64,000 bases of DNA, from positions 620,001 through 684,000 of the forward strand of contig JANSWU010000001.1 in NCBI GenBank assembly GCA_024743315.1, written 5' to 3'. Below the pieces are notes generated by a model. It had not been told where the DNA came from, made no database searches, and worked only from the letters and a program-made list of their open reading frames with translations. Both the position numbers and the translations under genes were made by a program. Below, piece after piece: positions 1 through 18,330 of the stretch; the stretch's first letter is position 1, and the number at the start of each line of letters is the position of its first letter. Source of the stretch: Hyphomonadaceae bacterium. GTDB lineage: Bacteria; Pseudomonadota; Alphaproteobacteria; Caulobacterales; Hyphomonadaceae.

Positions 1-75
1 GCACCTGCCCGTGCGTCGCGCCACGCAGGGCTGAGCGAGGGGTCCGATCAGGACAGCGGAGACAAAGTGTCCGCC

Positions 76-318
76 GACCCCAGCGCCGGCTGGGGTCCAG
101 GGATGGTTATCAAACCCCGGACTCGAGGGAGCTGTCGTCCATGGGGTCCTGCCTGCGCAGGACCTGTCGGATTTAGGATGGTTGTCTATTACTCAGCGCT
201 CTGCCCAGCTCGTCTGGGCAGTCCAGCACGGGAGGGTGCGGAACGATCGGGAGCGGCAACACCACTCTCGTTCTCCGACACAAGATCGGGTGCTGGGCCC
301 CACGGACAAGCCGTGGGG
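76..318. repeat. Intergenic composite palindromic element, copy A (array of hairpins)
   Basis: GACCCCAGC-GCCG-GCTGGGGTC (76-97), GGTCCTGC-CTGC-GCAGGACC (145-164), CTGCCCAG...CTGGGCAG followed by TCCAGCACGGGA (about 201-233), CCCCACGG-ACAAG-CCGTGGGG (298-318). The same module order occurs at 18068-18321. Confidence 0.8.
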
Positions 319-347
319 AGCGCTAGCGCTTGCATTTGGTAGAGCAT

Positions 348-17969: not shown

Positions 17970-18321
17970 CCCGGATCAAGTCCGGGAACACGGGACGTTA
18001 CTTACCAGACCCCCGCCGGCGCGGGGATGCGCGAATAAAGCGGGCGCGTCCTCCCCTCTTCACCGTTGACCCCAGCGCAGGCTGGGGTCCAGGGACAGAG
18101 CTCTTAGATCAGCCCGTGGGCGAATGCGGTCCGTGGATACCAGCCTGCGCTGGTATCTGCGGAGACAAGAGAACAGGGACCACTCTCTCAACGACGCTCT
18201 GCTCAGCTGGTCTGGGCAGCCCAGCACGGGATGGGGCCAAGGGCTCGGGAGAGATGACGTCACTCTCGACCCTCGCCGCAAGACCTGGCTTTGCGGCACC
18301 AGGTCCCGGATCAGGTCCGGG
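17970..18321. repeat. Intergenic composite palindromic element, copy B (hairpin array)
   Basis: CCCGGATCAAGTCCGGG (17970-17986), CCCCGC-CGGC-GCGGGG (18011-18026), GACCCCAGC-GCAG-GCTGGGGTC (18068-18089), GATACCAGC-CTGC-GCTGGTATC (18136-18157), CTGCTCAG...CTGGGCAGCCCAGCACGGGA (about 18199-18231), GACCTGG...CCAGGTC (18282-18305), CCCGGATCAGGTCCGGG (18305-18321). Confidence 0.85.
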
Positions 18322-18330
18322 ATTGCGGAT

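Follow-up and report, generated by a model that had tools for sequence, protein, structure and literature searches.

The window analysed here, a stretch of 64,000 nucleotides (C4:620001-684000) from the 3.31-Mb, eight-contig genome of a Hyphomonadaceae bacterium (G000), harbours two intergenic islands, A and B, in which a series of hairpins follows in the same order. In the initial annotation both were read as likely copies of one composite element of ~245 bp, either MITE- or REP-like DNA or a structured RNA. This raises the question of which unit is repeated, and whether it spreads as DNA or acts as RNA.

Two Separable Elements in Each Island

In line with the initial annotation, the first four of its five modules are present in both islands in identical order and on the same strand, and the 20-base core CTGGGCAGYCCAGCACGGGA occurs at exactly two places in the window, namely in islands A and B, compared with 0.02 occurrences expected in shuffled sequences. 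When island A was used as query against the G000 genome, 29 places matched at E ~1e-4 or better, mostly with the right half only, and full-length relatives were found at three other places with 70-74% identity. Because many of these matches cover only the right half or only the left half of A, each island consists of two separable units, termed L and R (Table 1), rather than of one.

The terminal hairpin, described before as the fifth common module, is not homologous between the islands. In A it is the true right arm of R, which runs 4 bp beyond the previously assigned end at 318 and takes in the terminal CGCT/AGCG repeat, whereas in B it belongs to another repeat. Correspondingly, the R of copy B scores E 1.2e-13 with the covariance model R1, compared with ~1e-20 or better for intact copies. 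Comparison with locus L011 indicates that its CCCCACGG arm is missing and that another palindromic repeat, TTTGCGGCAC.AGG.CCCGGATCAGGTCCGGG, takes its place from about 18284; a relative of this repeat lies just downstream of the intact R in L011. The GACCTGG..CCAGGTC hairpin of copy B is part of this other repeat (..TTTGCGGCACcAGGtCCCGGATCAGGTCCGGGA), and further palindromes surround this copy at 17970-18060 and 18303-18325 (CCCGGATCAAGTCCGGGA, CCCCCGCCGGCGCGGGGATG and CCCGGATCAGGTCCGGGA). The intact R of copy A folds with -70.5 kcal/mol (z -5.07).

Table 1. Coordinates of the features of islands A and B in the window (CM, covariance model)
Feature	Position	Strand	Basis or context
Copy A, intergenic stretch, 313 bp	35..347	.	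between HxlR-family gene (+, stop 32-34) and rbfA (-, stop at 348)
Copy A, L: inverted pair of REP-like hairpins	70..170	+	CM R2 match G000:C4:620070-620170, E 2.7e-15; alignments
Copy A, L arm 1, GACCCCAGC-GCCG-GCTGGGGTC	76-97	+	alignments
Copy A, L arm 2, GGGGTCCTGC..GCAGGACC	about 143-164	+	alignments
Copy A, 26-bp linker between L and R	171..196	+	coordinates of L and R matches
Copy A, R: intact 126-bp REP heterodimer	197..322	+	CM R1 match G000:C4:620197-620322, E 2.5e-26
Copy A, R outer tags	CGCT 197-200, AGCG 319-322	+	sequence
Copy A, R arm 1 hairpin, CTGCCCAG-CTCGT-CTGGGCAG, then CCA tail	201..221	+	
Copy A, R arm 2 hairpin, CCCCACGG-ACAAG-CCGTGGGG, inverted relative to arm 1	298..318	+	
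Copy B, L: arms GACCCCAGC-GCAG-GCTGGGGTC and GATACCAGC-CTGC-GCTGGTATC	18062..18162	+	CM R2 match G000:C4:638062-638162, E 6.1e-17
Copy B, R: left arm CTGCTCAG-CTGGT-CTGGGCAG and spacer kept	18195..18327 (R proper to about 18300)	+	CM R1 match G000:C4:638195-638327, E 1.2e-13

Architecture and Conservation of R and L

Covariance-model searches of the 3.31-Mb genome revealed 22 intact and two damaged copies of R as well as 13 strong copies of L. Intact R copies are 124-129 bp long, 15 of the 22 being exactly 126 bp in length, and L comprises about 101 bp. Both elements follow one plan, in which two hairpins with different stems stand inverted to each other; short unpaired tags flank them on the outer side and CCA-type tails on the inner side, and the spacer between them is nearly constant in length. 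R is composed of CGCT (the tag in most copies), hairpin CTGCCCAG/CTGGGCAG, YCCAGCAC, a spacer of ~60 nt, GTGCTGG, hairpin CCCCACGG/CCGTGGGG and AGCG; each hairpin has an 8-bp stem, a 5-nt loop and a YCCA tail, and the distance from hairpin to hairpin is nearly constant at about 76 bp. L is an inverted heterodimer as well, consisting of CCG.., hairpin GACCCCAGC/GCTGGGGTC, CAGGGAC, a spacer of ~37 nt, GTCCATG, hairpin GATACCAGC/GCTGGTATC and ..CGG, with a likewise nearly constant hairpin distance of about 45 bp and the tag GYMG preceding an 8-bp stem. In addition, a shorter relative of L (~85 bp) was observed at ~10 further places in G000 (e.g., G000:C4:452223-452308 and C8:339608-339692), which likely represents a third dimer family.

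The two arms of R have the GCTTGTC loop core and its flanks in common and differ in their stems. Stem-sequence variants aside, every intact R in G000 and in the related genomes G015 and G028 contains one CTGCCCAG-type and one CCCCACGG-type arm. Among the G000 copies the arms are 93-94% identical, compared with 58% for the spacer.

An alignment of 65 R copies from eight genomes supports the arm stems: 98% of the arm-stem cells pair, changes on both sides were found at 11 of 14 arm-stem pairs, and the covariation score of 0.096 exceeds that of shuffles (0.065) and of slid controls (0.044 or less). Compensatory changes are exemplified by TGCCC/GGGCA to TACCC/GGGTA and by CCCCACGG/CCGTGGGG to CCCTCGGA/TCCGAGGG. 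Many copies with covarying stems in a covariance-model search had been named in the initial annotation among the signs that would favour its reading, and such copies were found. The covariation is seen only in the cross-species alignment; the G000 copies alone contain little of it, as judged by RNAalifold. Pairing between the two arms of R through the spacer is less consistent than pairing within the arms. A long central stem that would join both arms into one hairpin was likewise weaker, one of its pairs being broken in 47 of the 65 copies.

Individual copies deviate from this plan. At L019:1497-1621 the interior of R is inverted relative to both arms, with the CCCGAT side swapped, which looks like a flip of the inter-arm segment. 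Moreover, in several R copies of G015 and G028 the left arm is immediately preceded by an additional TGCCCAG..CTGGGCA hairpin (L067, L075, L077, L079, L086, L087, L089, L091 and L094), and the R copies with such an extra hairpin in these genomes show a compensated second stem, TGCCCGA/TCGGGCA or TACCCGA/TCGGGTA.

Recurrence of the L-R Composite

In G000, nine of the 13 L copies have an R at a distance of at most 80 bp. The arrangement of islands A and B, with L followed by an R whose CTGCCCAG side points toward L, was found at six loci of this genome (gaps of 24, 26, 28, 29, 30 and 32 bp) and at seven or more loci of the related species G015, seven of which have gaps of 25-29 bp according to the match coordinates. 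Since this order recurs at six loci in G000 and at least seven in a related species, the composite exists. Both the collinearity noticed before, as opposed to modules occurring only singly or in random order, and its MITE- or REP-like interpretation are thus upheld by the recurrent order and the near-constant gap. Of the claim that the islands represent one element, the recurrent composite stands and indivisibility does not, given that about 16 of the 24 R copies occur without L and four of the 13 L copies without R.

We also considered whether unrelated REPs came to lie next to each other by chance, the likeness of A and B being only apparent. The solitary copies and the extra palindromes on both sides of B would fit such an origin; the recurrence of order and of the gap of 24-32 bp speaks against it, as do the nine L-R adjacencies, with p ~6e-10 in a conservative model that places all copies at random within about 515 convergent gaps only, their number being scaled up from the window. 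With order and spacing recurring in a second species, chance juxtaposition is largely refuted, and the probability that we assign to it is negligible.

The reverse order, with L downstream of R, was observed at L012, L017 and L095. In G028, R forms part of another repeated mosaic of ~300-375 bp. What is repeated there frequently exceeds R in length, so that R cannot always be the unit that moves. The overall organisation is therefore modular, like that of the bacterial interspersed mosaic elements (BIMEs) of enterobacteria, which are extragenic mosaics of inverted REPs and linker motifs.

Placement at Gene Ends and Gain at Site A

None of the 62 R copies in three genomes lies inside a called gene, and copies occur in either orientation. 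R prefers gene 3'-ends: 13 of 23 copies in G000 sit in gaps between convergent genes, and a single one in a divergent gap. By comparison, 10 of the 64 gaps in the window are convergent (p 8e-6), genes having been called with a home-made caller and the background taken from this window only.

Such a bias to convergent and 3' positions, together with arms that are far better conserved than the spacer, would be expected of bidirectional intrinsic terminators or mRNA-stabilising hairpins that are selected at convergent gene ends and do not move as DNA. The hairpins are not followed by a T-run, however, and loop and stem keep their very letters across the copies of the genome, although termination does not require this. 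Moreover, positions differ between related species, and at site A the relatives lack the element. We consider this explanation improbable, although a secondary role as terminator or stabiliser may exist beside mobility.

At the site orthologous to that of island A, the gap between the HxlR-family gene and rbfA measures only tens of bp in most relatives, among them G007, G015, G028, G010 and G022 (alignment gap 14-25 bp), as compared with 313 bp in G000. By parsimony, this difference points to a lineage-specific gain of island A. The relatives are too diverged to fix the insertion ends to the base; by eye, no obvious target-site duplication was seen in the flanks. A short imperfect inverted repeat, GCGGAGAC-AAA-GTGTCCGC, located at 56-74 inside the gained stretch, touches the left end of L. 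Copy B was considered as a second empty site and dismissed; in relatives the two genes that flank it are widely separated, which places it at a synteny break.

Patchy Distribution of R

R was found in 23 of the 61 relatives and, across the order, in 26 of 200 genomes, the named relatives being records of Hyphomonadaceae, Henriciella, Hyphomonas and Parvularculaceae. Outside the closest species, mostly variants of ~93-105 bp were found, and within one genus the copy number ranges from 0 to about 25 depending on the species. The sites are mostly different: among about 20 R sites, one is common to G015 and G028 on both sides, and two more have one flanking gene in common. Literature searches retrieved no described repeats of Hyphomonadaceae.

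These data bear on the alternative that the islands encode a structured non-coding RNA, or RNA family, whose length would be about 126 or 245 nt and whose function would lie at the RNA level. In line with this idea, single copies fold significantly (z -2.3 to -6) and the stems contain compensatory changes. Against it, no Rfam match was obtained even at E up to 1, positions are almost never common to related species, and the occurrence is patchy. In addition, copies are oriented either way, both strands fold owing to the near-palindromic nature of the element as a whole, and the terminal stems show few G-T wobble changes. The RNA reading of the initial annotation thus found no favour with us, and we regard it as very improbable.

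Distant matches to the hairpin pattern in Verrucomicrobia, the PVC group, Actinomycetes and others turned out to be lone hairpins without a second arm and were left out of the counts. Metagenome bins of Verrucomicrobia and the PVC group contain multicopy CCCCACGG..CCGTGGGGAGCG hairpins of this type (L103, L111, L121, L122, L124 and L138), which are apparently independent REPs.

Search for a Mobilising Enzyme

The profile PF01797 (Y1/RAYT transposase) gave no match in G000, G015 and G028, the three genomes richest in R, whereas control genomes were positive. Y1 genes are present in G009, G012 and G021; within the 3-kb loci examined they are not flanked by R. These sequence searches suggest that the mobilising enzyme has been lost, lies outside the Y1 family or otherwise escaped recognition here.

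Likewise, no insertion sequence with R ends was seen in G000 or G015, since every CCCCACGG..CCGTGGGGAGCG end in these two genomes sits in an R copy; in G028, three matches to the right-arm pattern lie beyond those assigned to R copies. A classical MITE, in which a DDE-transposase insertion sequence has lost internal sequence and is moved by that transposase via its terminal inverted repeats, would account for the inverted termini, the constant size, the intergenic insertion and the gain at site A. It accords poorly with a perfect terminal repeat of only 4-5 bp that is followed by arm-specific stems, with the lack of a corresponding insertion sequence in G000 and G015, and with flanks that show no obvious target duplication by eye. 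This origin therefore seems quite doubtful to us.

Discussion

Taken together, R and L are very probably REP-dimer repeats with non-autonomous spread. In the fuller reading that we prefer, and that is probably correct, they constitute two families of REP head-to-head heterodimers of a REPIN- or BIME-like kind, and the islands are neighbouring pairs of both. As DNA spreading non-autonomously, L and R might expose their terminal hairpins in single-stranded form, e.g., on the lagging strand, as in the REPIN model. A trans-acting nuclease or transposase could recognise these hairpins. What is copied would be either the stretch enclosed by the tags or a whole adjacent L-R pair, and its targets would be gaps between convergent genes, where insertion presumably does least harm. 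The step of hairpin or single-strand transposition, drawn by analogy, is put forward tentatively. As a likely by-product, such insertions would leave a bidirectional hairpin at the 3'-ends of genes, which may stabilise or terminate transcripts; a role of the hairpins in 3'-end processing is possible. The most similar R pair in G000 is 86% identical and nearly identical copies are lacking, which suggests that the activity in this genome is old or spent.

A more specific version appears rather unlikely to us, namely a RAYT-independent REP-dimer system in which L and R travel as one ~255-bp unit of fixed order and spacing, are moved by a non-Y1 enzyme and form obligate heterodimers of two set stems.

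The R-rich genomes combine high copy number, constant length and strict heterodimery, yet contain no detectable Y1 transposase. These traits and the gain relative to sister species turn the search for the mobiliser into a task for comparative genomics. Di Nocera et al. (2013, PMC3733652) leave open by what means REPs spread that have no linked RAYT, a question to which the elements described here are relevant; beyond it, L and R are ordinary bacterial intergenic repeats.

Comparison with Known REP Systems

With enterobacterial BIMEs, the islands share the mosaic of inverted REPs in extragenic space. L and R are multicopy intergenic palindromes (24 R and 13 L loci in G000), organised as inverted dimers with spacers of 20-100 bp, as is general for REPs and BIMEs. 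The sequences are unrelated, however, and here two different dimers are joined in one order by a linker of near-constant length.

The REPINs of Pseudomonas (Bertels and Rainey 2011, PMC3116915), whose movement is attributed to the Y1 transposase RAYT, resemble L and R as inverted REP doublets with conserved ends and a less conserved spacer of constant length. Moreover, the clover or long-hairpin fold, the intergenic position and the lineage-specific copy number are alike. In contrast, RAYT/Y1 was undetected in the three R-richest genomes and is not flanked by R at the loci examined in genomes that have it, and the REPIN tag GTAG/GTGG differs from CGCT in R and from GYMG in L, which only comes near GTAG.

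Also close in form are the CGTC REPs, an alphaproteobacterial superfamily without transposase association and with convergent or unidirectional placement (PMC3733652). These are head-to-head heterodimers with 20-100-bp spacers, CCA tails, 8-9-bp stems and 4-5-nt loops; the same arrangement, including tags outside, placement at gene 3'-ends and no linked transposase, was found here. However, the tag is CGCT in R and CGTC, TGTC or CCTC in the superfamily, and the R stems begin with C-T or C-C, unlike the complementary A/T at the first and second stem positions there. In addition, two families are joined here as a composite of fixed order. Because the tag and the stem start differ from those of the CGTC REPs, and RAYT and the tag from those of the REPINs, we call L and R REP-dimer-like and file them in neither named family; they are an undescribed variant of the REP dimers, a kind of repeat that is already known.
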